Assembly: GCA_021234155.1 (NCBI GenBank)
Contig: JAJEKV010000035.1
Location: 7,499,891-7,563,890 of the forward strand
Direction: 5' to 3'
Length of the DNA stretch: 64,000 nucleotides
DNA from: Isoetes taiwanensis
Taxonomy: Eukaryota > Streptophyta > Lycopodiopsida > Isoetales > Isoetaceae
Under the pieces are notes generated by a model, which saw only the letters and a program-made list of their open reading frames with translations, had not been told where the DNA came from and did not search any database. The translations under genes were made by a program, and so were the position numbers. The first letter of the stretch is position 1, and each line of letters starts with the position of its first letter. Below are positions 4,684 to 61,557 of the stretch, piece after piece.

Positions 4684-6171
4684 TGTGGCGTCCCCTACTG
4701 CGATATCGATGATGCTTGACCGTATACAAACAGGAGTTCATCCCCCATACCAGCTCCATTGCTGATACAGGGCCCTCCACATTTCACTGTGACCGTCTGA
4801 AGTCCCCAGTGGGAAGAATGAAGGGGTCATTTTACCCCGTCTCCCTCAGGGCCTACCTAGCTGCGGAAGCGTAAACATACACGTCAGTAACATACATCAC
4901 ATAGCCACCTCGAAGGGTGGTATATCAACATCTGCATACACAAAGATCAGCACAATACAAGTGGGATCCTACCCAAGGCTCATAACGGGGATGGGACCGA
5001 CAAGCTTGGGTCTCGAGAGTTCGATTGAGGCGAGTCATGACAATGGGATTGGGTGGCATAAGAACATAGCATTGGGTTGTCCACACCATCCGCCCCTCCC
5101 GTGCACACTGCGAGTAGGTTGAAAAGTGTTGGAACCCGATCGTAGCCAGCGTAGGGTGCATAGCCAAAGGGGCTACTCTGGGTTGCCCGATGGGGCGGTA
5201 GGGATCACTCCCACCCGAGGTCTACATGTGACCCAAGTCACTAGAAGGCCACACGCCCTTATTCGACTTAACCCCCGGAAGGTGAACCCACCCCCCTGGT
5301 GTCGAGCCCATGCCTTGCCCACACTTTCGGTGGCAAGCCATTAGACCTAGTCACTGATCCCCGGTAGGCCCTTACACACACGGAGGGATCGGTCAAGGGT
5401 CGAGAACACCGAACCTCGTTCGAGCGGTCCTGTCCCTTCACCCACAACCAGGTGTGGTTCTTGTACACATGCCGAATTCTAGTAATGCACTAAGAGGGAC
5501 TAACTAGGAGCATCATCTACTAAGCTTTAAGTCTCTACCCCCCTTCCCAATACAATGAGTTCACAGAATCCATCCGTCCATCATATCAACATAATAAATA
5601 ATAAAGAACTAATCTATCTCATAGAGTTAGGTTCTTTAGTTAAGTCAATCTCGGGATCTACTTGGCTGCTAGGGGTGATCTAATAGGCTAAACCTACTGA
5701 TTCGAAGGCTGGGGTGAGGTTTATGCTATTTGATCGACCAAATACCTGATCCCTGGTTCACTCCTCTTGATCCGAAGGCGTCCATGTCCTTGTTCTGCTT
5801 CGGGGTGCGGTCGGAGGGATGATCTGACTAGCTGGGGCGCACAGGCAGATCGTGGGAGTTGGAATTGATTCCTCAGGCGCGCGAATCGGAGCTCGGAAGG
5901 TCTGTGGCCGAAAAGGGAATGTTAGGGTTTGATGCCTTACGTAGGCTATCAGTTAGGTTTTAGGGTTTCCATGACCCTTGGTCTACCTTTAATGGGTTAA
6001 AGGTCTAAAGGTGCGCGCATTGCTAAGTGTGCGCACCATTGCAAGTTGCCCCCTAGGGCGTCCTTGCTTAGGTATGTGTCGGCGTACACATTGACTAGGC
6101 GCGTGGTAATGTGGCGTGTGGCCTTGATGACGGTATCGTCTTGAGACCGTATATCGTACTGGAACGTCACA
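4684..6171 (-). repeat. 3' LTR of chromovirus
   Basis: 1488 bp, TGTGGCGT...ACGTCACA. It matches 16602-18035 over its whole length with scattered changes and a roughly 50-bp stretch (around 5062-5115) missing from the other LTR. The divergence points to an old insertion. Short frames inside it are not genes. Confidence 0.93.
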
Positions 6172-6185
6172 TTCTCCCCACCTTG
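6172..6185 (-). promoter_or_regulatory. Polypurine tract of chromovirus
   Basis: On the minus strand this reads aaggtggggagaat directly before the 3' LTR, the expected site for plus-strand cDNA priming. A near copy lies at about 6213-6226. Confidence 0.8.
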
Positions 6186-7003
6186 AATTGATGCTGTCCC
6201 CAGCATCGTGGTTCTCCCCACCTTGAGATCTGCTTATCCTACAATCAACCTCATGCATACAATATACTTATTATTACATTCATACATTTAATAGAATTAC
6301 CTTAAGGTAATTTTTACAGGACATTATTGAACTATTATTCAATCAAATGCTTAATTATTCGCATGTTATTACAACGATTACTCAAATTTTATTATATATA
6401 CTATTATTCTTCGAGGTACTTCTTTATTCCTTGCAACACTTTAGACAAAATTGTGTTGCAAGTCTTCGTAGTCCGACCTCCTAGCCCTCCGGAGCGCTCT
6501 ATTGGCCTGCAGGTCACACTACGTTAGTACCATATATTTAATTATTTATAAAGTTTTGGTTATATGGTGACCACCCCACCTATCTACATGGATGCATGGC
6601 TAATCTCCCGACGTAGGAAGAGGGTGATTCTTCCATTATGGCCGTGGAGACAGCGTCTATATGCCTATGTGCCACTCATGCCTACACCTTTAGTTGCCCA
6701 GCGTGGAGGATAGGTCCTTCCCGTATATGTGGCGTGAAGGCCAGATTCCTCCTATCAAAACATATATGGGGCTAGAGGTGCTTTTCCTATCAATGCATTC
6801 CTTAATGACCTCCTTTCTCTCGAGGTCGTCTACTTCCGTGGGACAGAAGTAGACTTTCCAAGCGGCACCGCGGTCATGCCTACATTGACATTACACCACG
6901 TCCTAGAGATCACCGTAGTAATCTCATCATCGGTTACAACGCATGCAACCCTTACCTCATAGGTTGCATGCGTAGATTATACCTAACTAGGCAAGCTGTT
7001 AAT
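6186..7003 (-). other. Chromovirus 3' untranslated region
   Basis: About 820 bp between the end of the integrase frame and the purine tract. The part nearest the LTR is AT-rich. I see no reading frame with family signal and no further insertion. Confidence 0.6.
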
Positions 7004-8102
7004 CTACACAAATCGACATGCGAGCCGATTTCTTGGGAGATGATTTTGCCATCCCATTGCTCGTGAAAGTGGGTACTTGTTTTCCAGATCTCTTTTAAGT
7101 ACCCATGTTGTGTCTTCTACCGGCAAGTGCTTCCACTTGACCAAGTATTGGAGGAACTCCGATCTCCTTGTTTTCTTGAATGCTTTATCAAGAATTATCT
7201 CTGGAACTATTTCCAACTGCTCCTCTGTCATTTCCAACATCGTTGGGGTGTCCAGGATTTCATCTGGGTTGGGAGTGTGCTTCTTCAGCAAACTCACGTG
7301 GAAGACTTTGTGGATCTTTAAGTGTGCTGGCAAGTCTAATCTGTAGGATTGGTTACCCACTCTCTTGACTATTTTGAATGGTCCAGCCCACCTTGGAGCA
7401 AGTTTCTTGCAATTCCCGATGCGGAGCTTCGCCTGCTTCACCTTGATCTTGAGCCACACATTGTCGCCAACTTCAAACTGCCTGACTGTTCGATGCTTGT
7501 CGGCGATGCTCTTTTGACGACTCCTTGCTGCTAGGAGATATCCATGTACTTCTTCTACGAGCTGCTTGCATGATAATTTCGGCATTTGTTGGGAGACTTC
7601 CACTTTTGACACGGGATTGTGCCAAGTGTCTGGAGTTAGGCATTGGTAGCCGTAGTTGATCATGAACGGCGACATTTGGGATGATTCCTGCTTGGTGCTA
7701 TTGTACGCAAACTCCACTAAGTGAATAAATTCCTCCCACATACTTGCTTGTTCCGGACATAGTTTGAACATGTCTTCGAATTCTATTGACACGCTCTGTT
7801 TGCCCATCCGTGCGTGGATGATAGGCCGTGCTCATGGATAACCGTTCCAATCGTTGTGAAGAGATCTTGCCGGAAGGCTGATGAACCGGATCTCGGGCCG
7901 GAGATAATTTCCCTTGGCATGCCATGAAGTCTGAAAATCTCTTTGGTGAAGAGTTTTTGCCGTGTCCATAGCCGTGTCCGTGGTCATGCAAGGCACAAAA
8001 TGGGCCATCTTCGACAACTTTGCGACCCACGACCATCAAAGCATCCTTACCTCTTCTTGTTCTTGGCGGTCTGTTATAAAATCCATACCGACGACCTCCC
8101 AC
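7004..8102 (-). pseudogene. Chromovirus integrase with C-terminal chromodomain
   Basis: Minus-strand remains of the integrase, which joins the cDNA ends to host chromatin. The core segment STAYHPRTDGQTERVNR carries the catalytic Glu. The earlier Asp region (8102-7830) is scrambled by two or more frameshifts. The frame starting near 7807 reads on through the GPF/Y module (RWAGPFKIVKRVG, then HKVFHVSLLKK). It ends in a chromodomain: ILDKAFKKTRR...QYLVKWKHLP...TTWV, with the two conserved Trp. The chromodomain marks this as a chromovirus; in the family it reads methylated H3 tails such as K9me. The first aromatic cage position is not obviously aromatic here. The chain ends at about 7004. Confidence 0.9.
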
Positions 8103-9794
8103 TTAGCGTTTGGTACCACTAATGGTTCCAAAGCTTTGGAATCGAAGTTGTTCGCCGCCTTCGTTTGCCGGCATACGACACTCCTTGATGTGGCGAGCTA
8201 TCTGTTTCTTCATTCCTGGCCAATAGTAGCTGCTACGCACTTTGAAATATGTCTTCATGAATCCTGCGTGGCCAGCTATTGGGCTGTTGTGGGTGTCGTG
8301 GAGGATGAACTTTCTTACTCCAGATGATTCCGGCACGCACAACTTGTTCTTATGGTATAGGAGGTTACCTTCCTTTTTAAAGTTTTTGAAGGTTTCCCTC
8401 TCCTTGTCTGTTCTCGCTTCCTTGGACAAGTTTGCCCATACTTCTTTGAAGTCTTCATCCGTTGGCAAGGTTTCTTCTATCTTTTTCCCGAAATCGCTGA
8501 AGAGCGTCGAGATTGCATTGCAGTGCACTCTGGTTGTCAGTGGATGTCTTGAAAGCGCATCTGCTACCACATTAAGCTTCCCGGGTTTGTAGACTATCTC
8601 AAAGTCGTACTCCTCAAGAAATTCCATCCACCTTCTCTGCCTCAGATTGAGATGCGGTTGCGTGAATACATATTGGAGGCTCTGGTGATCAGTGTCCAAC
8701 TGGAATTTCCTCCCTAAGAGGTAATGCCTCCAGATTCTCAATGCCCTGACAACTGCTAGCAGCTCTTGATCATGCGTCGGGTAACGCGCGTTTGCGTCGT
8801 TCATTTTCCTTGAGTAAATGCGCTATTACCCGCTCTTCTTGCATCAACTTTGCGCACTGTGGCTATCTTGCTTGCATCCGTTGCCACTAACTTATCTTTC
8901 TCCGGGTCTGGCAGGGTCAAGACGGGGGCGGTTGTCAAGGCTTCCTTCAACAACTCAAATCCTGCTTGGGCCTTCTTGAGCCAATGGTCTGCCCAATTTT
9001 TTACTTTCTCCACCTTTGTTAAGTCCGTCAGTGGGGCTGCTATCTTTGCGAAGTTCTTCACGAACTTCCTGTAATACCCTGCTAGGCCAAGGAAACTTCT
9101 GACCTCGTGGACGTTCTTTGGTGCCGGCCATTGGATTACTGCTTCAATCTTGGCGGGAGTGCCGGAGATTCCTTCGCTGAAATCACATGACCAGGGTATT
9201 CCACCTTTCTCGTTTCGCAGTGACACGCCCGACAACTTGGCATACAACCGATGCCTCCTTAACTTCTCGAGCACCTTCGGCGTCTTTGAGCATGCTCTTG
9301 AATGGATTTCTTATACAGACACCGTATGTCGTCGAAGAATACTATGACAAAGGTGTCTAAGTATTCTCGGAAGATGTCGTTCATGAGTCTCATAAACGTA
9401 GCTGGGGCGTTGGATAGCCCAAATGGCATTACGGTGAACTCATAATGCCCATACCTGGTCCTGAAAGCCGTTTTGTGGATGTCCTCCTCTTTTATTCTGA
9501 TCTGGTGATAACCTGACCTTAGGTCGATTTTGGAGAAGACCTTTGCCCCTTGGAGCTGATCCATCAAGTCGTCTGATCTGGGAAGTGCGTACTTGTTCTT
9601 GATGGTGTGCTTGTTCAACTGTCTGTAATCTATGCACATCCTCAAGCTTCCATCCTTCTTCTTGACAAAGAGGATGGGTGCCCCAAATGGTGAGACACTA
9701 GGCCTGATGAAGCCTAGATTGAGCAATTCTTGTAGCTGCTTCTTCAGCTCTGTGAGTTCATGTGTGGTCATTCTATATGGGGCCTTGCTTGTCG
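8103..9794 (-). pseudogene. Chromovirus reverse transcriptase-RNase H and integrase zinc finger
   Basis: Three minus-strand frames cover this part of pol. Frame 9794-9259 has [37 protein letters not shown] and [12 protein letters not shown], all RT landmarks. The active site reads VFFDDI where most relatives have an aliphatic residue before DD. A shift near 9265 leads to the thumb and connection region (SFLGLAGYYRKFV), and another near 8804 leads to RNase H (TDHQSLQYV, DALSRHP). The integrase HHCC finger follows (GHAGFMKT..., YYWPGM), with its second Cys lost to a shift at about 8110. The protein copies genomic RNA into cDNA; this copy cannot. Confidence 0.92.
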
Positions 9795-10349
9795 CATTAG
9801 AGGAAATTTGAGATCTCATTTCATCCCCATAAGAATCCTCCAATGGAATGGCTACCCTCTATTAACTGCAATTAATGCAGCACCAACAACTTCATTGTTG
9901 TTGTTTTTCCCCCATAACTTTTGATTCACTTGTCAAAATGTTGCGGCGTTTGTTGCATTAGATGCGGAATGAAAAGATCTTTCCAATGATATATGGTTAT
10001 GATGTATTTCAATATGGTCATATGCGTTAACGTTAAAAAAATATGATTTTTTGCTTATTTCTTATATACTTATATCATAAAAGATATATAAATGGATTAT
10101 CACTAGATAGATCTTGTGAAGACGAACCCATTGCTACAAAAAGTTTTTGAATCGGAGTTCTGGATCAAAAGTTATAATGAAAAAATGATACTACAGAAGT
10201 TAGTTGCAACTGCATTAATTACAGGCTGCCACATAATACTGGAATGAGATATACTGGAGCTCTTCTCTTATTGGACAATTTAAAAAACTGACGTTGCATT
10301 TTAAGCATCCCTTAATGGGACAAAATGTGATCTCATTTTTCCTCTAATG
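9795..10349. mobile_element. MITE with about 33-bp terminal inverted repeats, inside chromovirus pol
   Basis: A 555-bp AT-rich block separates protease from RT. Its ends are inverted copies of attagaggaaa...gagatc...cattt..tccc (about 27 of 32 bases match). Removing the block restores the pol frame exactly, so it is an insertion. No clear target duplication is seen. It carries no gene. Internally it has a 'ttttgatccagaactccgatt'-like phrase on the minus strand, related to one at 35946. Confidence 0.85.
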
Positions 10350-12204
10350 GCTTGGTCCCTGGCTCGAGTGCTATCTCACACTCTACTCCCCTGTAAGGAG
10401 GAAGTTTCTTGATCTCATCTGGAAAGATATCATGGAACTCCGTAATCAAGTTGGCGATTGGCTTGGGTAACTCGCCGAGCGCCTTGTCTTCCTTGCTTTC
10501 TTCCGACTCTTGTTCCTCAATCTCGAGTTTGAAGATGTATGCTACCTTCTCGCTCCTTATAGATTTGAGCAGCTTCTTAACGGACATACATTGCATGATG
10601 GGGCTAACTTCTTTACCTGTGATCCCAATGGCTTTTCCGTCGGGCGTTGGGAAGGTCACCTTCCGCTTCCCACAATCGATGATGGCGCTTGCTGGCCCAA
10701 GGTACTCCATTCCAACAATCAAGTCGTATTTGCCAATGCCCATTACTTCTGCCCCCATCTGGATATTAATCCCTGGCAAGTCAATGTCGAAGTTGATTCT
10801 CTTCCCAGCTGTATGTCTTACCGCTCCGCTTGCCAAGATTACGGGTCTTGGTTTGGACTTTAGGGGTTTCAGTTTCATCATTTCAACCATCCTTGGGGAT
10901 GCGAAGTTATGGCTACTTCCGGAGTCTATCAAGACTATGAAGGATTTGGCCTTTGCCTTCCCTACTGTGGTGATTACCTTATACTGGGCCTCTGCCTGTT
11001 CTGTATCTATAGCAGCGAAGATGTGGCACCATGCCCCCAACTCTGCTAGCGCTGAGCTCATAACAAATGGGCAATTTGCTGTTCGGTGGCCCGGCTGGAA
11101 ACATCTGAAGCAGAGCTGCTTCTCCATGCATTCCTGTCTTTTCTCCTTGGGCAACGCCTGTAGGAAGGACCGTACTGCTTTCGAGTAATTGGATCCTTCC
11201 TGTTTGTCCTTGAAGGACACCTGCTTTCTTTCCTGTTGTTTCCCCTGGTTGCTATTGTATGGGGATTTTGCTGGGCTTGGGCTGGCTGCCCTAGGACTGT
11301 AGCTTCCTGTTGCTTTCCCTTTATCCTGATAGTATGGCTGCCTCTGTGTGCTGCTCTGCGGCCCCGATCCTTGCAAACTAATTGCCTTGGACTCCGCTTC
11401 AGACACTGTTCTGGGGTCTATTGCCCGTACGAGTTTCCTTAGTTCTTCGTTCAGCCCTTCTATGTAGCTTTCTACTGCGTGTTTCTCGCTCAGCTTCGGC
11501 ACATATAGCCTTAGTCTCATAAACTCTTCGGTGTACTTCTGCACCGTTTTGTACCCCTGCTGCAATCTGTAAAACTGCTGCATCATATTCGACTTGTGTT
11601 CCCGAGGGACATAGTGTTTCTTGAAAGCTTTTGAGAACTTCTTGAAGCGGCATGCGTCTCTGCTCAACCCATGGGCTTTGGCATAGCCTTTCCACCATAT
11701 GCGTGCGGCTCCTTTCAGGTTGGCTGTCGCCACCCTGCCTTTGTCTTTGTCCTTCATGCCGTAGGCATTGCCGTACTCACTCATTTCGTCCAGCCATGCC
11801 TCTGCCTCTAAGCCGGATCTGTTCTCGCCCGAGAACTGTTCGAGTTTCCGGGCTTTCCACACATTACCCAGTGCTGAGTCCACCTTCTTCTGGTAATCGA
11901 GGGTCTTAGTGTCCTTCTGCCTGCCGTCTCTACGGTCCGGCGCCTGCTCGGGCTCTTTTTCGGACTCAGAGTCCGAGGTCGAGCTTGATTCGGAGGTCTC
12001 TGTGCTGGGGGACCTCCTTCTCTTATTCCTTCTCTGACTTTCGGGGTGTCGTTTGTGGTCCGGCTGATGCTTGGGCTGCGAATAGGGCCTTTATTGGTCC
12101 AGCTCCGTTCGCATCTGCGACATCTCCTCTTCTGGGGTCATGGGCCCATATCCTTCGAAGAGGTTCCTGGGGATGGGTTGCCTGTCAGGAGTCTCTTCGT
12201 CCAT
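10350..12204 (-). pseudogene. Chromovirus gag-protease
   Basis: Frame from ATG 12204, with an in-frame TAA at 12093-12091, then open to the MITE. The N-terminal part is Ser/Glu/Arg-rich. The retrotransposon gag capsid domain follows (ARIWWKGYAK, FSKAFKKHYVP, QGYKTVQKYTEEFMRLR). A CCHC zinc knuckle, CFRCFQPGHRTANC, sits at about 11112-11071. The protease Asp lies in LIDSGSSHNF at about 10926. Gag forms the particle and packages RNA; the protease processes the polyprotein. The frame continues in phase with the RT after the MITE, so gag and pol were one polyprotein. The TAA is the only stop in gag. Confidence 0.92.
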
Positions 12205-12440: not shown

Positions 12441-13583
12441 CTACTCTTGATGTCGCCGGTAGGATGGATTGTCCTCTAGGAACTTCTTCACTTGGGCTGT
12501 TCCCACTGAATGACCCAAGTTCCTAAGGACGTTGACTGAAGATCCCCCCTGCAAGGCTCTCGCCAGTTCTTCTACTCTGCGCTCGGAGGTGTAGGCTGCT
12601 GTTACTACTAGCCTTCCTTGCCGCCTGTAGGGTATGGCGAAGTCAAAAACATCGAGTGCTACTGCTCTCTTCACCAGGATGGCATACTCGGTGTTGAGGG
12701 GCAACCGCGCATGCCGGCCAAATCCTGAGAGCGCAATTAGCATTGATACTCCTTCCTCGCCTCTGGGGGTGAACTTGCGGTGAATTACCGCTATTCTTCC
12801 ATCCATCAGCAGGGGGAGGTAATATCGCAACGACCTGTCATTGCGAGATGGGTCCTCGGCCGCTCGGTATCCGGCTCTGTGTCTTCCCGCAAAATCATCA
12901 ACCTCTACCGTGGTGAGTTCCCTGTAGTCCCTAACTGTTGCTGAAGCTCTCCTGAGGTCGAATTCACCTCTTCTTTCCCGGGGAGGCGTTGCCGAAGAGC
13001 TTGTCGTTAAGATGTTCGATGTCGCGTGGCGAATCCCCATCTATTCCTGAAGAGCGAGGAACTCTTCCTCCGTCGGTAGTCTATTTGCGGCGTTATCTGC
13101 CTCCATCATTTGCCTGATGCCGCTGTAGGCTTGAATGTCGGAAGTCGACTCTCCTGTGTAAGTGTCGGCTTCCCTTATTTGGAGCGGAAAGTCAGATGCT
13201 CCTCGGACGATGAAGTCGTCCAGGTCCATTCTTCGGAGTTGGTGCAGCAATTCTTCAGGTCGGTACTCCCTTTCCCTGCACTCCGGGAGGTTTTGGATGT
13301 CGCTTAAAAGCAAAAACTCCTCTCCCTCGACAATAATGGGGGCTAGGCTTGTAATGCCTAGCCCAAGGGGGGGCGCGACTCTAGGAGTTTGCCGGCTTCT
13401 TTCGAAGTCCTGCCATTCTTGTTCTGCTTGTCGCCGCTCCTCTGCTGGGTCGAGCTCGACATAGTCTTCCTCTTCTTCTGATTCTTGTTCTTCTGAGTCC
13501 TCCTCTTCTTTTCCTTCCTGCTCCTGTTCATATTGCGTAAGGAGCCGTTGTTCTGCTGCTATGGCTATTGGGTCGACGTCCAT
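12441..13583 (-). pseudogene. Accessory ORF with acidic N-terminal region, one in-frame TAG, function unknown
   Basis: Between the H3-like gene and gag. The frame runs from ATG 13583 to a stop at 12441, about 380 codons, interrupted once by TAG at 13043-13041. The codon after the TAG is ATG, so two proteins or readthrough are also possible. Residues about 20-55 are almost all Glu/Asp/Gln. The middle has hydrophobic strands (PLGLGITSLAPIIVEGEEFLL). The second half is mixed, Arg-rich, with AILVKRAVALDVFDFAIPYR and a C-terminal ARALQGGSSVNVLRNLGHS. I recognise no family. Acidic tracts occur in histone chaperones, which is suggestive next to a histone-like gene but is not proof. A further frame upstream (13783-13565) may be an N-terminal extension lost by frameshift. 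Confidence 0.6.
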
Positions 13584-14646
13584 GGGGGGAATGGAGGTTT
13601 CTCCCACAATGTTCTCGGCACGATGGGTAAGAAAAATTGCCAAGGCAGTGTTGAAAGAGAAATATTTGGTCCTATTACTTGATTAGGACCATTGGCTCCA
13701 GTGTCTTGCGCCTTGTTTATCAAGTATTTGGCAATGTTTGGAACATCACCTAAAAAGCTTGCTAGGGGATTGCCTAGGAACAAAGTACCCTATGCAAGGT
13801 GGGAGCTGCACTAGTCTTTGGTTCTACCCTAGCTTGGAATTCAGACGGGACTCTCTCTTGTAAGCTGGGGTTGCGCGGCGAGAGTTGCTTGGACATCTAC
13901 CTCCTTGGGAAGGCGTGGAAAATTTGGTCGATGTCGGCTCGGCAGCATGATGAGCCGACCACCACCATCTGGAAATCGAGAGGTTGCCATTGGTCAAATG
14001 CGAAGGAGGGTCTCAAACGGTTGCAAGAGCGCCTCAAGAGCTGGAAAATCGGCTAAGAAGGCAGGAGCAAACTTGTAGGGTGTTGTGTATGGAATGAGGG
14101 ACCTATTTATAGAAAAGGGGAAAACCCTAATTTTTGGATGACTTGGAAAATTCCTGGGGTTGGCCAATTCTAGTCTATACTAAGGTCAAAATGGGAATTT
14201 GAAGACTAGTTCAAGTGTTTGGGCGTGGCTGGATTACCTAAAAGATGCTATACAACAGGTTGGGAATCCTTCGGGCAAGTTCTGGTGAAGAAATGGTAGG
14301 AGGTCTCATTTCGATCAAAACATGTCCGATTTGGATAAACTAAGGGTATAAGGATGATGGGTTCATCAAATCGGGTAGAATCGACCCTTTATTTGGTCGA
14401 TTTGGAACTGTTTTGGGCGAGTTTTGGGCAAGGTCTCACAGCTTGCGCCTCGCTCAAAAACTAAAGTTTAGTTTTTAGTCCAGGCGCGAGCTGTGAGACA
14501 TCACGTCTTTCTATCTGCAATTGTCCTATTTTCCCAAAATAAAAGCTAAAACTTGCTAACTTATCCTAATTGAGCAAGTTCAGACAATTAAAGTACTCAA
14601 AATTGTTCTATTATCACAAAAATTTCTCAATTATTTACAAAAAAGT
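13584..14646 (-). other. Inter-ORF spacer with one palindrome
   Basis: About 1.06 kb between the stop of the H3-like gene and the acidic ORF. I see no convincing coding. It contains one of the three 67-bp palindromes (14433-14499). A plus-strand frame at 13799-14056 has no family signal. Confidence 0.5.
14433..14499. repeat. 67-bp near-perfect palindrome, copy a
   Basis: Reads gtctcacagcttgcgcc... to ...ggcgcgagctgtgagac, and is almost its own reverse complement, with a central aaactaaagtttagttt core. It can form a long hairpin in DNA or RNA. Copies b and c lie at 16139 and 16329. Confidence 0.93.
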
Positions 14647-15925
14647 TTAGGGGCGTTCTCCCTTGATGCGAGTAGCAAGTTGCATATCTTGCCTCATCAA
14701 AGTCACTCGCTTCGCATGGACAGTGCAAGCTGTTGAGTCTTCAAAATGCTGCACTATCTTCTGCTCAGCTGCTTCCTGGAGTGCGAGCAGCATCTCATCT
14801 GTGACCCTGTAGTCCGTCCTGAAATCCTGCATTACTTCTCTAACTAGCCGAGCAAAGGGGGCGCGGGGAATCAGGAGGCCGTAGCTGCGTTGGAAGTGCC
14901 GAATCTCCCGTAGTGCTCTTTGCTCGAGCTGCTTCTTTGTGAGCTTCTTCTGTGCAGGCTTTTTCGGGACCTTGGGTCTTGGTGGTGGCGGTCTTAGGGT
15001 CTGCTGCTTGGTTGGGTGTCCTCCTTCGATGGCCACGACCACATTCTCTCCCCGTAGTACTTGTCATATGCCTCCCACTCCTTCATAAAGGCATTGTGCT
15101 CCGCATCTTTCGTTCGTAGATTTTTATTGGGTCCGTAACATAGGACTCTCAGGCAGGCAGGGGTTGCTTTTCCTGTCCCATTTACCGGGTAAGGAGGGGC
15201 TTCTTCCTTTGTGTCCTCTGCTGCTCTTCCTCGGCGCTACACCTTTCGGTTACCACACTGCTCAATGGGGGGGTTTGGAAGAACTTGCCCCTACGTGTTG
15301 GGGTTAGGCTCTCTTCGTCGAGAACCCCTCGAGGGGTTGGGGATGATCGGGTGACCGCTTCGGTAATGGTGATCTTCGGGTTGGGCTTTTTCACCATGGG
15401 GACATCCTTGAACTTCCTGGGGCTCCGCACCCATTTCCCTTTCTTCTTCCTGAGCTCCTCGGACGATTTCTGCTCTTCTTCTTCCCTCCTCCTCTTCTTT
15501 TGCTCCCTTTTTCTTTCACGCCGTTCGTACTTCCTGATAAAAGCAGCGAGGTCTGCTTCCTCTTCCGGCTGAAGTCTCGGCTCCATCTGCTCCTGTTGCT
15601 CCTCCGCTTCCTTTTCTCGGACCCAGGCTTCGACTTGTTCTTCGATGGTCGGCTCTGGAGTCGGCACCCTCCTTTCCTCTCGGGCTTTGGTTCTCCTTTC
15701 CCGCTGCACTTCCTCCTCCTCCTCCTCGATTACTTCCGTCCCTGCTTCCGAGTGTACTTCATCTTTTTCATTGTGCTCGTTCGAAGGTTCTCCCTCACTC
15801 GAGGAAGTTGGATCGTTAGGGTTAAGGAGGCGCTCCTGTAGCATGCGCCGAATTGTGCTGCCATCGACGGCACCGGTCGCTTCGCCTGGGCGGGCTTTCC
15901 TCGCAGTCTGCTTGGTCCGTGCCAT
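14647..15925 (-). pseudogene. Histone H3-like protein gene inside a retrotransposon (tail, long linker, histone fold)
   Basis: ATG at 15925 starts MARTKQTARK, identical to the histone H3 tail through Lys9. Next comes ARPGEATG where H3 has STGGKAP, so Ser10 is Ala. About 235 residues of Glu/Arg/Lys-rich linker follow to a TAA at 15184-15182. A second frame (15185 to about 15050) is open and coding-like ([18 protein letters not shown]). The third frame, to the stop at 14647, is Pro/Lys-rich and then an H3 fold: [51 protein letters not shown]. By eye about 50 of 88 core positions equal canonical H3. Loop 1 has the canonical length, not the longer CENP-A one. DNA-contact Arg (R69, R72, R83, R116) and H3-H3' contact residues (C110, H113, D123 equivalents) are kept. 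Two frameshifts separate the parts, or the tail and core are separate products. It probably acts in chromatin or cDNA packaging; that is inference. Confidence 0.88.
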
Positions 15926-16138
15926 GTTTGACGGATCGTCAGTCGGATCTCGGGCGCCAAAGATCGCCTTAGGGAGCGAGAGCTGGTTTCTAAGGCGGGA
16001 ATGTTCAAATGAGGGGGGTCTACTTCTATTTATAGCTTGGCAAATTTTTAGGTCAAACTTCAAGTTGCTCTATTTAACATGCCAAGACACCTATTTAGTT
16101 TAAAACTTACATTTATTTCAGACTTTTCCTACTTATTG

Positions 16139-16204
16139 GTCTCACAGGTCGCGCCTCGCTCAAAAACTAAAGTTTAGTTTTTAGTCCAGGCGCGAGCTGT
16201 GAGA
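16139..16204. repeat. 67-bp-type palindrome, copy b
   Basis: Same palindrome as at 14433, in the leader between the primer site and the H3-like ATG. The centre is identical to copy a. Confidence 0.92.
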
Positions 16205-16328
16205 TCTCACACATTTTTAAGCAATTTAAGTAATCAAATCATGCTATTCTTACTAATTCCTATCTTAGAATTAGCTTTACCATATTCGTTTTCTCAAATT
16301 CATCATGTTTAAGTGATCTTGGCTCGAT

Positions 16329-16395
16329 GTCTCACAGCTTGCACCTCGCTCAAAAACTAAAGTTTAGTTCTTCGACCAGGCGCGAGCTGTGAGAC
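16329..16395. repeat. 67-bp-type palindrome, copy c
   Basis: Third copy, also in the leader. It differs from copies a and b at a few bases (gcacctc; ttcttcgacc) but still folds on itself. Confidence 0.92.
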
Positions 16396-16588
16396 CACCT
16401 CACTTTGGCAAAATTTTTGGCTCATTCTTTTTAATTTTATTAAGTTCCAATTTACTTAATTGTTACTAGCTTAGCATAACTACAAAAATGAGAAAAAAAA
16501 AATCCCACTTTTCGAAGCTTAAGGATCCTACCAAGTTAGTACTACTGGGAGCATGGCCAGTGCTTTGCTCTTGGTCTCCAAGAACATT

Positions 16589-16600
16589 GCTCTGATACCA
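16589..16600 (-). promoter_or_regulatory. Primer-binding site, initiator tRNA-Met
   Basis: The minus strand reads TGGTATCAGAGC one base after the 5' LTR end, complementary to the 3' end of plant initiator tRNA-Met. The TRIM at 20489 and the Copia at 49.1 kb use the same primer. Confidence 0.92.
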
Positions 16601-16601
16601 T

Positions 16602-18035
16602 TGTGACGTCCCCTACTCGTATACGATGCCCGCACCGTATACAAACAGGAGTTCATCCCCCATACCAGCTCCATTGCTGATACAGGGCCCTCCACATTTC
16701 ACTGTGACCGTCTGAAGTCCCCAGTAGGAAGAATGAAGAGGTCATTTTACCCCGTCTCCCTCAGGGCCTACCTAGCTGCGGAAGCGTAAACATACACGTC
16801 AGTAACATACATCACATAGCCACCTCGAAGGGTGGTATATCAACATCTGCATACACAAAGATCAGCACAATACAAGTGGGATCCTACCCAAGGCTCAGAC
16901 ACAGGGATGGACTGACAAGCTTGGGTCTCCAGAGTTCGTTGCAGACGGAGTCATGACAATGGGATTGGCTGGCATAAGAACATAGCTTGAAAAGTGTTGG
17001 AACCCGACTGTAGCCCGCCGGGTGCATAGCCAAAGGGGCTACTCCTGGGTTGCCCGATGGGGCAGGTAGGGATCACTCCCACCCGAGGTCTACATGCTGA
17101 CCCAAGTGACTAGAAGGCCACTGCCCTTATTCGACTTAACCCACTGGAAGGTGAACCCCACCCCACGGGTGTCGAGCCCATGCCTTGCCCACACTCAGTG
17201 GCAAGCCATTAGACCTAGTCACCCTGATCCCCGGTAGACCTTACACACCAGAGGGATCGGTCAAGGGTCAGAACACGAACCTCGTTCTGAGCCAGTCTGG
17301 TCCCTTCACCCACAACCAGGTGTGGTTCTTGTACACATGCCGAATTCTAGTAATGCACTAAGAGGGACTAACTAGGAGCATCATCTACTAAGCTTTAAGT
17401 CTCTACCCCCCTTCCCAATACAATGAGTTCACAGAATCCATCCGTCCATCATATCAACATAATAAATAATAAAGAACTAATCTATCTCATAGAGTTAGGT
17501 TCTTTAGTTAAGTCAATCTCGGGATCTACTTGGCTGCTAGGGGTGATCTAATAGGCTAAACCTACTGATTCGAAGGCTGGAGTAAGGTTTATGCTATTTG
17601 ATCGACCAAATACCTGATCCCTGGTTCACTCCTCTTGATCCGAAGGCGTCCATGTCCTTGTTCTGCTTCGGAATGCGGTCGGAGGGATGATCTGACTAGC
17701 TGGGGCGCACAGGCAGATCGTGGGAGTTGGAATTGACTCCTCAGGCATGCGAATCGGAGCTCGGAAGGTCTGTGGCCGAAAAGGGAATGTTAGGGTTTGA
17801 TGCCTTATGTAGGCTATCAGTTAGGTTTTAGGGTTTCCATGACCCTTGGTCTACCTTTAATGGGTTAAAGGTCTAAAGGTGCGCGCATTGCTAAGTGTGC
17901 GCACCATTGCAAGTTGCCCCCTAGGGCGTCCTTGCTTAGGTATGTGTCGGCAAACACGTCGACTAGACGGCGTGTACGCGTGACGACGCAGTACGGTATA
18001 CGTCTTGAGACCGTATATCGTACTGGAACGTCACA
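16602..18035 (-). repeat. 5' LTR of chromovirus
   Basis: 1434 bp, TGTGACGT...ACGTCACA, same order as 4684-6171. It would carry the promoter and the transcript start. Confidence 0.93.
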
Positions 18036-19529
18036 AGCTAGGGTCTGGACAAGACCCTATGGAGGTTGGTGAGCTGGGAAGATGTGAAGAGGGACGGCTT
18101 AGGGAGACCAGTGCAGGTAGGAAGGAGGGGGCCGACCCTCTCTTGGTCTGTCAGCAAGTATCCGCAGTGGATAGCCTGCAGGACGATGCTTGTGTGAGGA
18201 GCCCTCGAGCAGTGGTTGCACAAGGGTCAGGGGAGGCGGAACCGGAAGTCCCAAGCAGTATGCCTCTGTTGGAGACAGCAACCCCGTTCAGAAGTCTGAG
18301 TTTGCCTGCTCCTACACTGTCAGAGGACCCCTTCGCAGTGGCAGAGCCGGTATGCAGTCTGTCTCCGGGAGAGGCATGTGGTGGTGCTTCGCAGCATCTA
18401 GATAAGCCTTCAGGGCGCAAGATCCCGACTCTGGCAGGCGGTAGAGGGGCATGGAGTTGGCGCGGCAGGGCCTGCCTGGCGAACGAATGATACGGTGAGC
18501 AGGCTCTTACGTCCATGGTTTTTGGAATGGATTCGACACACAGTGGCGCCGTCTGACACCTGCAGAATGGAGGAGGCTTTGGCCTTTCTGAATCAGCACA
18601 ATAGGAGAGAGTTACAGGTTGACCCCACTGGTCCTCCTGCTAATATAATCGAGGTAGATCTCCAGCAGCACCTCAAGTCTATTTCCAATCTAGTCTCATG
18701 CGCAGTGCTGGTGTATTATACTGGAGTGCTGGACACAAGGAGAGTCGGTGGGTGGCTGCAAGCTCACTTTAAGCAGCTGGGAATCTCGCCGTTTCAGTCC
18801 ATGAAGTTCCTGGGTAATAACTTCTCCCTCCTCATGTTCGACGCGCCTATGGTGGTGGAGAGGATAGTAGCGAGAGGGATGGACCTCACGTGGGAAAATT
18901 ACTTGATTTATCAGCATTACACCCCTAGTGTGAGTGCTCGATCCCTGTCGGCTTTGAAGATCCCGTGTTGGTTTGAGGTGGTGGATCTTCCCGCAGATAT
19001 GCTTTTGCCAGAGTTCATGATTGTGATCGCGAATGGGCTCGGAGGGCATATCTCCCATTCCATTATTCGGGCGCCAAAGATTTGTGTGGCTTTACCCGCA
19101 GATAGCCCATTGCCTCCTTCGGTGGCTGTTCGGAGCGGTGATTGGTATTTTCGGTTTCCCCTCAGATTGCTGAATGGGGGTTCCCCGCCCTCCGAGGCTC
19201 GCTTCCTGAGCACAGGCCCGCCCCCTAGTGCCAGGGGTGCCACGGGAGGCAAGGCAAGAGGTTTTACGGGACGGGGCTCACGCCCGGTGCCAGGGGTGCC
19301 ACGGGAGGCAAGGCATGAGCTTTTACAGGACAGGGCTCAGGCCTCGTTGCAAGCTTTGCCGGTGGAGAAGGCGCCTCCGGTCAGGTCCCAGACGGCAGCT
19401 GGGTCCGTGCCGAGTAGGCCTCTCCGATCTACTGCGGATAACGTGCCAATGGTCGTTCCGGAGGGGCAAGGCGGCATGGTCCCATCCGTGCCCCCACAGA
19501 CGGCGGCCCAGCGATTGCTCCACATTTAG
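18036..19529 (+). pseudogene. LINE ORF1 (DUF4283-like), frameshifted
   Basis: Two frames, 18038-18490 and 18495-19529. The second holds a domain with IPCWFEVVDLPADMLLPEFM and LGGHISHSI, like the DUF4283 region common in plant LINE ORF1 proteins that bind element RNA. It is followed by a Gly/Arg/Pro-rich tail. The tail has a tandem duplication of about 57 bp (near 19228-19342, gtgccaggggtgccacggga twice). The chromovirus cut the 5' part away at 18035. A stop at 18490 and a frame change at 18495 break it further. Confidence 0.75.
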
Positions 19530-19782
19530 CAGCTTTAGGAGCTGGCGGAGCGGCGACAGTCCCAACATGTGTGCACAGGGCTGGAGGAGGATCGGCTGTT
19601 GCAACCGTTGGACTCTGATGCAGTTTCTACCCAAGCCTCGTCAGAGGGGATGGAACTTGACAAGGTGGCTCGGGTACGCTCTTGGGCGGACGAGGTAGAT
19701 TTGGATGCTGAGGTCTCCCTTACAGATAACCCGCTCGCTGTAAAAAGAAGCAACATAAGAATCCTTCTTCCCAGTAATATTT

Positions 19783-22700
19783 ATGGATAAGAAGATCTTG
19801 AGCTGGAATGTCCGTGGGGTGCGCTCGTCACCCAGTAAGAGAACGAGAGTGGCGTTGGCAGTTCGCAAGATGGACCCAGATATCTTGTGCCTTCAGGAAC
19901 ATAAGTGTCACAGGGGGGACGCACGGGCACTGTTGGACATGTTTGGGCCGCAATACACTGCTGCCATTGCCACCTCTGGGGCCTCTAAAGGTGGGACTGC
20001 CGTGGCATGGAAGATGCATGTGCAGGTCACTTTTACTCTGGCCAACCGTTGGGGTAGGTGGGTCATTATCAAGTGGCGAGAGGGATCACATGAGTGGGAG
20101 CTTGTGAATGTCTACGCCCATAACAGTGCGCGGCAAAGAGGGGCGTTGTGGATGTCGCTGAGGCATAAGGTCACATCCTTCGGGGCTGGTGTGGCTTGGC
20201 TGCTGGTAGGTGATTTCAACATGGTCGAGACTGCGCAGGATAGGTGTGGCAGGGGCGCCGAAGTGGTACAGGGGTTTGAGCGGCAGCAATGGGTGCAGTT
20301 GTTGGACTCCTCGCAGTTGGCAGAGGCATCGGGCGACTCCACATTTACCTGGTGTAATCAATGGATGGGGGCTGGAACGGGCGTATGCTCGACATGAAGA
20401 TGTTATGCTAATACCCTAGCATCGGATCGGGTGCCTTTGCTCAAGCGTAAGAATATTTTGTCCACCGCGGTCTCTGATCATTATCCACTGTAACGTTCCT
20501 AACCGACATGCCCTTAGCCAACTGGGCAAAACCGTCAAGACATAAATATGAGTAGTCACTTCTACCCATTTATGCCGGTGTCTCGGGAACGCCCCACAAG
20601 TACATTCAAGGTTCGAATACTCGAGCGGTCTACCATGGTCCCGTTACAGTCTCTCCCACTAGAACTATGCTCGTCCTCGAGCATCCAAGGCTATACCATG
20701 TCACAATGATTACCAAGTCTTTGCAAATTACCCATGCATATAGGCACCCATGGAGACTCGAACTCGAGGCCTGCTCTGATACCAACTGTAACGTTCCTAA
20801 CCGACATGCCCTTAACCAACTGGGCAAAACCGTCTAGACGTTTATGAGTAGTCGCTTCTACCCATTTATGCCGGTGTCTCGGGAACGCCCCACAAGTACA
20901 TTCAAGGTTCGAATACTCGAGCGGTCTACCATGGGCCCGTTACATCTTCAGTTAATTTCTCAGGACTCGAGTGCAATACGGCCAGCACGCACAGTGTTCA
21001 AACTGAACACCGCATACTTAAAGGATGCTGATTTCTCCTGGGGATGCCAGCAGATTTAGTTCCGTACTTTTCGAGATCACTTCGGGATGTTTGGAATGGT
21101 AAAGGCCCTGGCTGAGGTCAAGGCATTCGCCAAGTCGTGGGGGAATCGAAGAGCACGGCAGGAGTGCGAGGTGCTAGAGGCATTGTATCGCGAATTGGAA
21201 ACCCTCAGATCTCAGCCGTCTGATGGTGTGCGGGAGAAGGAGATATTGCGCCACATTGCAGCAGACGAGTCTAGGAGGGCTGCTCAGGCAAGGGTGAAGG
21301 CGGGGCACCTGGCTGCGGGAAGGGGACACTAATTCTCGAATGTTTTTCAGAGCTGCACGGCAAAAGAAGTATGTGGCCTCAATGTCGTCTCTGGCATTGC
21401 TCGATGGCCGCATTCTGCAGTCACCGGTGGACATTAAGCAGGCTACTTTTCAGCACTTCTCTCAGTTCTTTCAGGAGAAGAGGTATCCCTACACTGACGT
21501 CATGGAGGAGATCGTGCTCAGTAAGGTGTCATGCAAGGTGTCGGCGGATAGAAGGCAGGCGCTAGAGCGTCCGCTTACAAAGCAAGAGCTTGAGAAGGCT
21601 TGCCGCGCCTTGGCCCCTCATAAGTGCCCTGGTTTGGACGGCATTCCGGTCGAGTTCTTCCAAGAATATTGGGAATGGGTGGGAGACTCAGTGATACAGA
21701 CCTATCAAGATCTTTTTCAGGCAGAGGCGCTTGGTTATAGGCTCAACACTGGCTGCATCTCGTTAATACCGAAGGTAAATGAGCCATCTGTCATTGCGGA
21801 TTGGCATCCGATTACGCTTCTGTCGGCAGTATACAAGATAATTACGAAGGCCCTCTCGCTTAGACTGCAAGTTGTCCTGAAGGAGGTTACTAGTCCCATG
21901 TAGTCTGGCTTCATTCCGGGCAGGCATATTCTTAACAATGTGGCGGCGGCATTCGAGGGCATTCACTGGGCGCGCAGAACAGGTCAGCAGATAGTGTACT
22001 TGAAGCTGGACTTCGCGAAGGCCTATGATAGTGTTCGTTGGGATTTTCTGAGGAGGATGATGCTAGCCTTTGGATGTGGTGAGAACTTTACAGCAGTGGC
22101 TCTGAAGCTCTTAACGTCTGCCAGAGCCACCATCCTATGTCACGGCGAGTCATCGCCGATCTTTACTGTGGAGTGTGGAGTTCGCCAAGGATGCCCTTTG
22201 GCGCCCTTTCTGTTTACCATCGTTGCAGAGGCCCTTTCGCAGTTACTGACCTCAGAAGTGGAGGTGGGGGTTATGGAGGGGCTGAGGATGGCAGACGGGT
22301 CGCAGCAGATTGGAAGCCAGTACGCTGATGACTCGTTTCTCTTCCTACAAGCTGATGAGAGGAATCTTTAAACACGAAGGAGCTTCTGGACACATTTTCT
22401 CTGGCGTCCGGCTACCTCATGAATTGGACGAAGTGCTCGGCATTATGGCCTGTAGCAAAGCCCATGCCTGTGGTTGTGTCCCAATTTCCTTGGCGAATGC
22501 AGCCGCAGGGCAGCAAGTATTTGGGAGGACATTCTGGTGGGACTGCGTCGGCACCTTAATTGGTCGAAGGGGGGGAAACTTTCCATGGCCGGCAGAGTCA
22601 CAGTGGCAAAATCCGTTTTATGCTCAACTCATATTTATATGGCCTCCATCATCCTGGCGCCAAAAAGCAAGGTTCGGGAAATCTCCTCTATGGTTCGTAA

Positions 22701-23967
22701 CTTTGTTTGGGGAGGCAATGAGGAAGGGGCGGTCGTCAAGGTAGCCTGGTAGAAGTACGTGCACCCCAAAGCTGCAGGTGGCCTCAGCTTTCTGGACCTC
22801 TCGCTCCATAGTAAGGTCCTTTTATCCAAGTTCATCTTTGGGATTCTCGAGAATCGGCTTGACTTCCCGGGCATGGTCCTGCTTCATCAGTTGCTGACTC
22901 ATTCGATAGTTTTCCATAAGCCGTCCGTGCCTGCGCGGCTTCCATGGGCGTTATTTGCAGAAATCCGGCCATATGTTAATGCCTCCCCCTTTCTGAAGGG
23001 GCTCCTGCGAGCCTGGGAGCAGGTCCGCCCGCTGTTTGCGATTGATGCTTCCAGTTGTATTCAGTTAGAGGCATCGCCATGGTAGATTCCGCTCGGCCCA
23101 GGTGCTTCACCTTTGGTGCTGGCGGCAACCGTCAATCCCCGAGTCTAGCGCAGGTGGGCGCAGCGTGGGGTCTTGACGGTGGGGGAGTGGTATATTGACG
23201 GGCAGCTGGCGCTTTGGCAGCTTTTCCGTCACAGGTTTCGACTTAAAAAGCGGGATTGTGCTATCTGGGCGCAGCTGGCTAATGCGCTGCTGTTGAACCC
23301 CCCAGTAGCGTCATGGCGTGTGTGGAGTTGTCATCCAAAAGTCGAATCCTCAAACTTCGTAAAGTCCTGTTATGAGCTTTTGGCAACTCAGGATGAGCTG
23401 CCTCCCTCGGACGGCTGGAGTCTCCAGGTGCCGGGAGATGACTGGGGTAACATCTGGAGATGGGTGTGGAACCCAATCTCGCCCCCTAAGATTCGGGTGT
23501 TACTGTGGCAGATAGTGCATCGGTCCCTGAGAGTGAATACGTGGGTACACAGGATCAATCCCCTGATCAGTGATCGCTGTCCGATGTGTGGTGCTTGTGT
23601 TGAGACTCTGGAGCACTGTATGTTTCTTTGCACAGAGATCCAGCGGGCATGGCAGTGGGTCCAACGCCTCTTTCACATCTCGCTCCGTAGTCAAGAGGTT
23701 CTTTTGGGGGTGTATCCTACTGGGTGGTCTCAGCATCAGCGTCTGGCCTTCCATTTGTGTAAGGCTTGGTTACTGTGGCTCATTTGGAAGCGGCGACGCC
23801 TGAAGATGTTCAGGAATGAGGAAGTGCAGCCTGGGGTGTTGATCCCGCAATTGAGGTACAAGTTATATCTTTCTTACATGGCGTGCCCTCGTAAGGAGCA
23901 GTTCAAGGCAGCCATATGGGAGAGGACCCTTCTCATTGTAGACAGCTTTGGCAGGTTTGTTACATGA
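19783..23967 (+). pseudogene. LINE ORF2: endonuclease, reverse transcriptase, zf-RVT
   Basis: ATG 19783 begins an AP-type endonuclease: SWNVRG, LQEHK, VNVYAHN, GDFN and FTWCN in order. It frameshifts near 20380 and is then split by the TRIM (20489-20944); the coding phrase TAVSDHYP ends at the TRIM. The RT has KCPGLDGIP, LDFAKAYDSV, VRQGCPLAPFLF and YADD at 22321-22332. The C-terminal zf-RVT zinc domain is at about 23480-23640 (PPKIRVLLW, RCPMCGACVETLEHC). In-frame TAGs at 21901, 22750, 23083 and 23146 lie where relatives have sense codons, often CAG. The protein would nick target DNA and prime cDNA there; this copy is dead. Confidence 0.92.
20489..20944 (-). mobile_element. TRIM (miniature LTR retrotransposon) inside LINE ORF2
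   Basis: Two terminal repeats of 160 bp (20489-20648) and 158 bp (20787-20944) begin TGTAACG and end CGTTACA. The 138-bp interior has a minus-strand primer site TGGTATCAGAGCAGG beside the right repeat and a purine tract AGTGGGAGAGAC beside the left one. That is the full cis-set of an LTR element with no gene, as in TRIM/SMART elements. The flanks (tccac and tcttc) match at three of five bases only. Confidence 0.92.
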
Positions 23968-24077
23968 GTCGTAGGTAGGTATGCGTGCCATTTGGGTGCT
24001 CGCCCAAGTGTGGGCAGGGGCACCCTAGTATCGCTCTTCTTGTACTTATTATTATATATTAATTAACTTGATCCTTC

Positions 24078-35288: not shown

Positions 35289-35547
35289 TCAAATGCCAAT
35301 AAGGACAAGGTACATAATGAAGTGTAGTCCATTGACAATCTTAGAATGGCTACTTAAAGGCTGCACGTGAAATATTCTATAGAATGTGTGCATATAACAT
35401 GTTGAATTGGATTCTATTGATTACTAGATATGCACAATATGGACTCCAGCAGCTATGCAATGCCAATAAGGACAAGGTACATAATGAAGTGTAGTCCATT
35501 GACAATCTTAGAATGACTACTTAAATGCTGCACGTGAATATGTAGCA
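35289..35547. repeat. Tandem duplication, period about 170-180 bp
   Basis: The block beginning tgccaataaggacaagg at 35293 recurs at 35461. The next part of the unit (aatattctatagaatgtg, 35369) recurs only at 37148, because a 1.6-kb element sits in between. Confidence 0.75.
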
Positions 35548-60245: not shown

Positions 60246-61557
60246 AATATGTAGCATAATAACATGGGGTTTTCTTTGTGTTTTTGTACGCTTTTCACTA
60301 AGGTTTTCCTATGATTTCGTGATGTATTCAAATGGATGTACTAATGCGTACATCTAGAGTGCACCATTTCTGAGCCATTGATTTTAACCCCTTTTTTTTT
60401 TCAATGGTCAACAACCAATGGCTCACAACAAAAGCCCTTTTTTTGTGCGTGTGGTGCATAATGGTCAACAACCAATGGCTCACAACAAAAGCCCTTTTTT
60501 GTGCGTGTGGTGCATAATGGTCAACAACCAATGGCTCACAACAAAAGCCCTCTTTTTGTGCATGTGGTGCATAATGGGCACATGAAGGGCTTGAAGGGCG
60601 CATGTAGTGCAGTTTCCCCGCCGGCAACACATTTCTTATCATAACTTTTGATCCAGAGCTCTGTTTCAGATGATTTTTATTGCGTTGGAAAGCTCTTTCC
60701 GAGATCTTTTTGATAGTGTATGATATGGATATGTTTGGTTAAGTTATCTATGCTAAAACAGCAATTTTTCGACCGGGTTTGGTAGGCTTTCACATCCTAC
60801 CAGCTGATTAATACAGGATTGCGCTATTGGATATTGTTTTATGGCTCATTCCGAATGAAGCTTGCGAAAAATTACCATGCATTTTTAGATTTTGAGGCAG
60901 TTATTAAGCAAATTCCAAGGCTTCTAGATCCTTGTGCTAACAAGCAGAAAAGTTTCCCACTTTGGTTTCTCACCACAAGAATCCATGGAGGCCAAAGGCT
61001 GCTGTTAAATTCCAGTTGAAAAATGTTTGTGTATGGGTGTTGCAAACTTTATGACTTTCAGAATAATGGGATCAATCTGCTCTATCTTTATGGTAACTCT
61101 TACTTATGTTCTATTTGTTTTATTGTGATGAAATTCAAATTCTATTGGTGAATTCTAGTTTTTTTTCTGGTTTGAATTCTAAAATTTTTGTCACACGGGG
61201 GGGGGGGGGGGGGACGTCCCTAAGGCCCCGAAGGGGCCAAAAATTTTTTTTTGCAACACAAACCATTAACATCTAACATATAAAAATTAAATCCCCCAAC
61301 ACATAACAACCATTGACATTAACAACCAACACATAACTACCATTGACATTAATTAACACAACCATTGGGTCCAACACATTTAAATTAAAATCTCCCTTAA
61401 ACCCCCTTTGGTTTGAGTGCATATTCACACGGGGGGTGACTCCGGGCAACGAGAGCTGTTGGATAGGCATATTCACCCCTTATTCCTTAATCTACACTGT
61501 ACGTAAAGTTCCTCGTTTGTGGGGTATGCAAGTACAAAATTTGCTATACTGTATAAC
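60246..61557. mobile_element. Partial second copy of the 35.5-37.1 kb element, loop inverted
   Basis: Near-identical to 35549-36730. After the left foldback arm (at about 61430) the sequence matches the reverse complement of 36831-36965, so the central loop is flipped relative to the first copy. The match stops at about 61557 and the right arm is missing. It includes the same three 60-bp tandem units and the same G-run. Confidence 0.88.

Follow-up and report, generated by a model that had tools for sequence, protein, structure and literature searches.

A Chromovirus Lineage of Isoetes taiwanensis Whose First Gene Encodes a Histone H3 Variant

A stretch of 64,000 nucleotides from the genome of Isoetes taiwanensis (hereafter the window) contains an LTR retrotransposon of the chromovirus group, the first gene of which encodes an element-specific variant of histone H3. 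The gene is resident in many copies and in three element types of the same genome, the histone fold of its product is conserved by selection, and the K4–K9 tail is kept in the type to which the window copy belongs (type A). In our opinion, the balance of the data leans to a protein that would form pairs with host H4, become part of nucleosomes and so attach the element to chromatin.

The H3-like Gene in the Window

The whole gene (ORF1) lies on the minus strand at 15925–14647, with its start codon at 15925–15923. The N-terminal frame, MARTKQTARKARPGEATG..., matches H3 exactly (ARTKQTARK) through K9, and translation from 15925 onward gives MARTKQTARK, just as the initial annotation had described the tail. 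This frame opens with MARTKQTARKARPGE and continues as a charged linker up to the stop at 15182 (first part, 15182–15925). It is followed by a middle stretch of linker in another frame (14994–15236), resembling by eye the linker of copies with a single frame, and by the part comprising a basic segment and the H3 histone fold (14647–15063), which ends with GERP and the stop codon of the fold frame at 14649–14647. The tail and fold frames of the window copy differ and a third frame lies between them, making two breaks, so the earlier assignment of both to the same gene region had been inferred. The window copy is frame-broken; copies of 424–425 aa in one frame exist. Among the first 20 family copies fetched, three have the tail and the fold in one open frame, with 425 aa in L030, 424 aa in L046 and 407 aa in L035, where part of the fold is garbled. 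Intact open reading frames, which the initial annotation had proposed to look for, do occur.

Out of 39 family loci, including the window, 20 yielded a start within 12 mismatches, and MARTKQTARK was exact in 17 of these 20 starts, again including the window. Four of the ten codons of this motif show synonymous variation among the 17 exact tails.

The window fold (15063–14647) matched PF00125 with E = 2.8e-29 (102 bits, Pfam cut-off 26.4). In a phmmer search against PDB chains, the top match was Histone H3.3 (E = 1.6e-28), without gaps across the fold, and the H3.3 and H3.1 chains were matched at E ~1e-28. This similarity to H3 far exceeds chance. Loop 1, DFRTDYRV, has the length canonical for H3, so that both the fold and its loop were correctly recognised at the outset. 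The alignment with PDB chains, read with the usual H3 numbering, indicated that R49, R52, R69, R72, R83, K115, R116 and R129 are kept. On the same basis, R53 is changed to H, K56 to R, R63 to P, K64 to R, K79 to R, K122 to Q, R128 to T and R131 to K. Type A thus departs from canonical H3 at R63, K64 and K122, a point against the nucleosome reading, as its DNA may be wrapped differently. The H3–H3′ interface residues C110, H113, A114, R116, D123, L126 and I130 are present, in agreement with the initial annotation. When the best 150 of 10,237 first-look candidates of a genome search with the window fold were scored, 32 of these 150 matches were located in stop-free frames of at least 400 aa.

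The Carrier Element

The element is 13.4 kb long and is bounded by two LTRs (18035–16602 and 6171–4684), which were established by self-BLAST and LTR alignment, have TG...CA ends and are 91.0% identical across 1,507 aligned columns. All its features are read on the minus strand. The 5′ LTR (16602–18035; TGTGACG...GACGTCACA, ends read from the sequence) is directly followed by the primer binding site TGGTATCAGAGC (16589–16600, by eye), which is of the initiator-Met type, and the polypurine tract AAGGTGGGGAGAA (6172–6184, by eye) precedes the 3′ LTR (4684–6171).

Of the genes, ORF1 comes first behind the 5′ LTR; ORF2 (13682–12444, in two frames) is situated between ORF1 and gag. Part a of ORF2 (13044–13682) has no Pfam family and resembles by eye ORF2 of other element types; part b (12444–13040) has nothing above the Pfam cut-off and gave 31–32% tblastn matches between H3 and gag in the loci L018 and L026. 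Further along, Pfam identified gag (Retrotrans_gag, Ty3_capsid) with an aspartic protease (10333–12090), the zinc knuckle of this gag being below its cut-off, then reverse transcriptase (RVT_1, 9262–9858), the frame-broken RT/RNase H junction (8801–9310), RNase H with the integrase zinc-binding domain (8106–8822) and the integrase C-terminus (SH3_Tf2-1) with a chromodomain (7007–7831; PF00385, E = 1.4e-8, 34.9 bits, cut-off 25.1). Thus, the order gag, protease, RT, RNase H, integrase is present, in broken frames. The integrase core stretch 8102–7701 had no Pfam match, and the rve match of another locus, L013, was slightly below the cut-off of 32.6 (31.2 bits, E = 2.8e-7). A clean target-site duplication was not seen when the flanks, TAGCT and CTAGT, were compared by eye. 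By its defining features, the carrier is a chromovirus (Ty3/Gypsy LTR retrotransposon), and its early description as a two-LTR chromovirus is borne out by the LTR pair, primer site, polypurine tract, gag-pol domains and chromodomain.

The differences between the two LTRs (4684–6171 and 16602–18035) are clustered in short blocks, and the rest is near-identical. Such clustering could reflect age, but errors of assembly or sequencing could equally produce it, and the frame breaks of the window copy may partly have the same cause.

Other repeats were also observed in the window. A LINE-like element (18400–23970, plus strand), with endonuclease- and RT-like frames recognised by eye, adjoins the chromovirus and holds a duplicated stretch (20482–20648 and 20780–20944, 94% identity by self-BLAST). 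There is also a repeat pair of 1.2 kb (35527–36762 and 60237–61456, 96.8% identity) and an inverted repeat of 0.6 kb (36558–37148, 82%).

Plant chromoviruses (clades such as Tcn1, Galadriel and CRM; PMC6317226) share with this element the LTRs, the TGGTATCAGAGC primer site, the domain order and the integrase C-terminal chromodomain. Unlike them, the window element begins its coding part with an H3-like gene, and another ORF, without a known family, precedes gag. The main text of the same survey uses the word "histone" a single time, where chromodomains binding H3K9 are discussed; the proteins of extra ORFs are characterised there as highly heterogeneous, 21.4% of them being similar to CDD domains.

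Distribution of the Gene within the Family

The genome containing the window comprises 1.658 Gb in 1,110 contigs. In a DNA search with the H3 gene, the best 40 of 2,225 first-look candidates were scored, and among these, besides the window, 27 copies span at least 1,275 of the 1,279 gene bases with 82–94% identity. A similar search was performed with gag, where the best 40 of 5,581 first-look candidates were scored and the 40 places were compared with 41 of the 47 H3-gene matches and the first 89 of the 150 fold matches. An H3 match was found within 12 kb upstream in 24 of the 40 gag copies, on the same strand in all 24. The spacing from H3 to gag was 2,537–2,644 bp in 22 of the 40 copies; the remaining two listed upstream matches were 4,420 bp and 11,732 bp from gag. 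Shifted coordinates, used as a control, gave 0.04 H3 matches per 40 gag places. For the other 18 gag copies the expected spot was fetched and read directly: seven have the H3 gene there, whole or in part and on the gag strand, and 11 are without it. In total, all or part of the H3 gene is located upstream on the same strand in 30 of 40 gag copies (counting the case at 4,420 bp); in one copy the nearest H3 is 11.7 kb off, and nine have none among the listed matches or at the examined spot. Truncation or insertion could be the cause of the ten gag copies without H3 in place. In the locus L056 (C1089:22844020-22846020), the H3 gene is about 4.3–4.4 kb upstream of gag and the hairpins that follow the gene are inside L056, where extra DNA seems to be present between the hairpin and gag.

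The central claim of the initial annotation, that the family carries its own H3-like gene, is supported by the many copies with this gene in the same place. The two further element types, the fern relatives and the flanking hairpins described below were out of its reach. Neither a feature unique to the window nor a single pasted host pseudogene is compatible with 27 near-full copies and with 30 of 40 gag copies having the gene. A host pseudogene, an insertion beside host genes and a chance motif were all ruled out by the PDB match, the copy number and the linkage to gag.

Two Further Element Types

A genome search with PF00125 gave 8,705 loose first-look candidates, of which the best 150 were scored, all above the cut-off. 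Twenty loci were fetched from these 150 matches, chosen mainly for long open frames and not at random. In all 20, the H3 fold is located behind a long N-terminal part, and they represent type B (18 loci) and type C (two loci, L018 and L026). An uninterrupted frame from an MPRFKLT-type start was found in 11 of the 18 type B loci. The N-terminal part of types B and C is about 340 aa long, differs from that of type A and is devoid of the ARTKQTARK tail, whereas type A has a free H3 tail on a charged linker of about 325 aa. By eye, an STGGK-like stretch can be recognised in type B, with R in place of K36. One-frame H3 proteins of the element types contain 407–459 aa.

In 18 of the 20 type B/C loci (all except L016 and L025), gag is downstream on the same strand, and the distance from fold match to gag match is 2,776–3,005 bp in 14 of these 18. 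RT was found beyond gag in nine of the 18 gag-bearing loci within the 10 kb fetched. The primer site TGGTATCAGAGC precedes the fold in 15 of the 20 loci, with CGTCACA just before it in 14 of the 15. L013 (type B) is the sole one of the 20 stretches with a chromodomain seen, 74% identical to that of the window. The stretch between H3 and gag contains ORF2, which reaches 462 aa when counted from its Met, and ORF3, of about 170 aa, situated, for example, at 5135–6520 and 6715–7221 in L019; two ORF2 copies and one ORF3 copy, when tested, matched no Pfam family. In RT matches of at least 80 residues, other loci are 71–85% identical to the window, versus 53–56% in the H3 fold, and hence either the H3 part diverged faster than pol between types or more than one capture took place.

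Residues 1–345 of type B, searched against 5.8 billion proteins, gave 5,692 candidates and no relative at E ≤ 0.001, which gives no clue to a partner of this part and weakens the nucleosome reading. An AlphaFold model of type B ORF1 (12 sequences) had a mean pLDDT of 54, most of the fold falling below 50; the best PDB match of this model in Foldseek had E = 1.8; it therefore gives no structural support. The model of ORF2 (mean pLDDT 33) was not usable.

Selection

The dN/dS values were calculated by the Nei–Gojobori method for folds in natural open frames. Low values are favoured by this sampling, which was confined to open copies and excluded saturated pairs. With this in mind, the medians were 0.082 for the type A fold (nine copies, 33 of 36 pairs usable) and 0.025 for the type B fold (12 copies, 66 pairs), i.e., well below 1, the threshold that the initial annotation had proposed as a check; neither of the two type C loci passed the filter, and this type is outside the set. 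Analysis of 11 type B ORFs by parts (36 to 54 of 55 pairs usable) gave 0.11 for the N-domain, 0.24 for the Q-rich stretch, 0.14 for the basic stretch and 0.03 for the fold, and type B ORF2 gave 0.08 (six copies). In six type A ORFs, dN/dS was 0.17 for residues 1–200 and 0.21 for the linker; residues 1–40 alone gave 0.56, and residues 1–15 were identical in all six. The type A fold in this analysis by parts gave 0.14 (three copies, one garbled). Two open RT stretches passed the filter, and their dS was undefined. Summarizing these values, the H3 folds are under strong purifying selection, and ORF2 of type B is under purifying selection.

Hairpins Flanking the Gene

A hairpin is located downstream of the H3 stop codon (14432–14502, minus strand), about 140–145 bp past it. 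It is a 68-bp imperfect palindrome with a folding energy of −42.9 kcal/mol and z of −8.8 (RNA fold). Two more copies, detected by self-BLAST on the same strand, are upstream of the gene (copy 1, 16137–16207; copy 2, 16329–16396). From a genome search with this downstream hairpin, the best 40 of 1,985 first-look candidates were taken and paired with 37 matches of the H3-gene search and six of the fold search. Twenty-six of these 40 hairpin matches follow a listed H3 gene at 102–139 bp, 25 of them at 136–139 bp from the query segment.

At 19 loci, the mean identity was 98.4% for the hairpin vs 87.2% for the H3 gene, a comparison in which the hairpin is favoured, as the loci were ranked by hairpin match. 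In loci picked by gag, the corresponding values were 94 vs 85% (L052), 94 vs 82% (L054), 90 vs 81% (L059), 86 vs 78% (L057, best piece 86%) and 85 vs 75% (L065). L061 showed the reverse (90% for the hairpin vs 96% over the remaining 320 gene bases), and L062 was mixed (96% vs 85 and 98%). These data suggest constraint on the hairpin at the nucleotide level. No clear compensatory changes were seen by eye in the hairpin alignment, and Rfam gave no match on the window. The hairpin is possibly a processing or termination signal, and the hairpins beside the H3 gene might allow expression or processing of this gene separately from gag-pol.

Relatives and Origin of the Fold

Three ENA proteins (P0018, P0121 and P0122) begin with MARTKQTARK, followed by a charged linker and a diverged H3 fold, i.e., they have the whole type A architecture; the motif APFARLV is common to them and to type A folds. 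Five hypothetical proteins of the fern Adiantum nelumboides (P0124–P0128) have the linker and fold in common with these ENA proteins, their models beginning after the tail or elsewhere. Another ENA protein, P0129, belongs with these H3-like proteins. The Adiantum genes concerned are L7F22_064055, L7F22_065911, L7F22_044355, L7F22_003857 and L7F22_014145. P0124–P0128 form a diverged H3-like family within one fern, and such fern annotation may hide more histone-bearing retrotransposons. In a search with the joined window protein, the top matches opened were mostly tandem or fused host H3, and one of the ten proteins opened, P0018, had the tail–linker–fold architecture. Phage records gave no match to the window fold and three viral-contig scans no confirmed relative, in sets that may omit records close to the window's genome.

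A tree of H3 folds was constructed from 88 columns, with a bootstrap that had not settled. On this basis, each of the types A, B and C forms one clade, as does the fern/ENA set; types B and C are joined at 99/90 and placed among canonical H3. Two constraints were not rejected, namely a clade of type A with the fern/ENA sequences (p-AU 0.097) and a clade uniting every type found in this genome (p-AU 0.112). In the same 88-column tree, type A groups at 98/91 with one Arabidopsis CENH3, represented by a provisional sequence.

The histone fold is common to the element proteins, host H3/H3.3 and CENH3; type A has, in addition, the exact tail through K9, and the folds of types B and C are close to canonical H3. 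Unlike host H3, the element proteins consist of 407–459 aa, the additional length being either a charged linker or an N-terminal part of a new kind, and exist in many retrotransposon copies.

Possible Roles of the Protein

An H3 fold with intact H4-facing and H3–H3′ surfaces assembles with H4. The ORF1 protein would accordingly dimerise with host H4 via its intact fold and would then enter (H3–H4)2 or nucleosomes. Its extension, which is the tail with the linker of about 325 aa in type A and the N-terminal part of about 340 aa in types B and C, might join element proteins or cDNA to chromatin. As a result, the element could mark, protect or re-target the chromatin holding its own copies. Judging from sequence, we infer that the protein would enter nucleosomes and there serve the element as its anchor or mark. 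The initial annotation had proposed that the H3 might chromatinise the cDNA, enter nucleosomes at the target or hide the element from silencing, each of which would be a candidate function.

A more elaborate version, in our opinion rather improbable, is that the element writes a private nucleosome mark in the form of the H3 variant with its own N-terminal part or H3 tail, a mark which is read by the integrase chromodomain or ORF2, so that a self-marked safe haven arises. In the window chromodomain, only one of three cage residues appears to be kept when they are located by eye against HP1, and this argues against a simple reading of the element's own H3K9me. With two of the three aromatic cage residues apparently absent, it is like type-II domains, whose partner in plants is given as not identified (PMC6317226). 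The chromodomain of MAGGY binds H3K9me2/3 and can target heterochromatin (PMC3350952). If the element did mark its own haven, this would help to explain the many copies, the partner of a type-II-like chromodomain would here be an element-encoded H3, and the related fern architecture would make self-marking a long-lived strategy of non-flowering plants.

Among the rival explanations, there is some minor chance that the protein is an anti-silencing decoy. Mimicking a histone, it would sequester or divert the writers, readers or chaperones of host H3, or would replace H3 on the element by a variant lacking the K27/K36 region, so that silencing marks could not be set. Type A keeps K4 and K9 with the rest of the tail swapped for a charged linker, an exact tail was found at 17 of the 20 starts recovered, and type B, by eye, keeps the STGGK-like stretch with R at the place of K36. 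However, types B and C are without the ARTKQTARK tail and yet the type B fold is more strongly conserved, and a decoy tail would not require a fold held at a dN/dS of 0.03.

A slightly smaller chance may be given to packaging, in which the H3-like protein would condense cDNA or RNA in virus-like particles or the pre-integration complex, as a nucleocapsid helper outside host nucleosomes. The basic segments ahead of the fold, the first position after the 5′ LTR and the weak zinc-knuckle match of the window gag are consistent with this role, but the kept H3–H3′ and many DNA-contact residues suit assembly with H4 and go beyond the needs of a general condenser.

It is unlikely that the captured gene came from CENH3 and directs the element to centromeric chromatin or helps it live there. 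The grouping of type A with CENH3 at 98/91 and the motifs EIRHFQ, LLIP and TLMR, common to both by eye, point in this direction. This grouping, however, involves a very long CENH3 branch, 88 columns, an unsettled bootstrap and a provisional CENH3 sequence, and types B and C stand beside canonical H3 in the tree. Plant CENH3 has a longer loop 1, while loop 1 of the window fold has the length of canonical H3.

Retroelements transduce host sequences, and many copies of this gene have decayed, as would be expected of a host H3 captured and passively amplified without any role for the element; nevertheless, a fold dN/dS of 0.025–0.08, three diverged element types and a conserved position next to a conserved ORF2 make such a passenger very improbable. 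Ordinary canonical H3 genes do occur in this genome (seven loci were read), but a host multi-copy H3 family with retrotransposons inserted by chance is practically negligible against the constant gag spacing in 22 of 40 copies, the same strand in 24 of 24, the shifted control of 0.04 per 40 and the primer site found ahead of the fold in 15 of the 20 type B/C loci.

Conclusions

Marseilleviridae are DNA viruses with core histones. In other viral histones (Medusavirus, bracovirus CpBV-H4), a core histone is likewise found in a genetic parasite, and CpBV-H4 is reported to become part of host nucleosomes and to act via its N-terminal tail. The carriers of viral histones are DNA viruses, whereas the carrier here is an LTR retrotransposon. 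To our knowledge, no other retroelement encodes a core histone. No retroelement-encoded histone was found in the open-licence literature searched, and the 2022 review of viral histones (PMC9145170) contains no word beginning with retrotranspos, retrovir or retroelement. Within the same literature, no other retrotransposon family has been found described with its own selected H3 as the first gene after its start.

The data also contain a warning for genome annotation, as at least 18 of the 20 loci examined from the best 150 histone matches sit in retrotransposons. The natural long-tailed H3 variants are material for dissecting the roles of the H3 tail.

Core histones are usually regarded as products of the host, with which retrotransposons are packaged and silenced, and here a lineage of retroelements encodes its own H3 under selection. 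This opens a direct test of whether transposons author chromatin and do not only read it, and possession of its own H3 may bear on how the lineage became so numerous.
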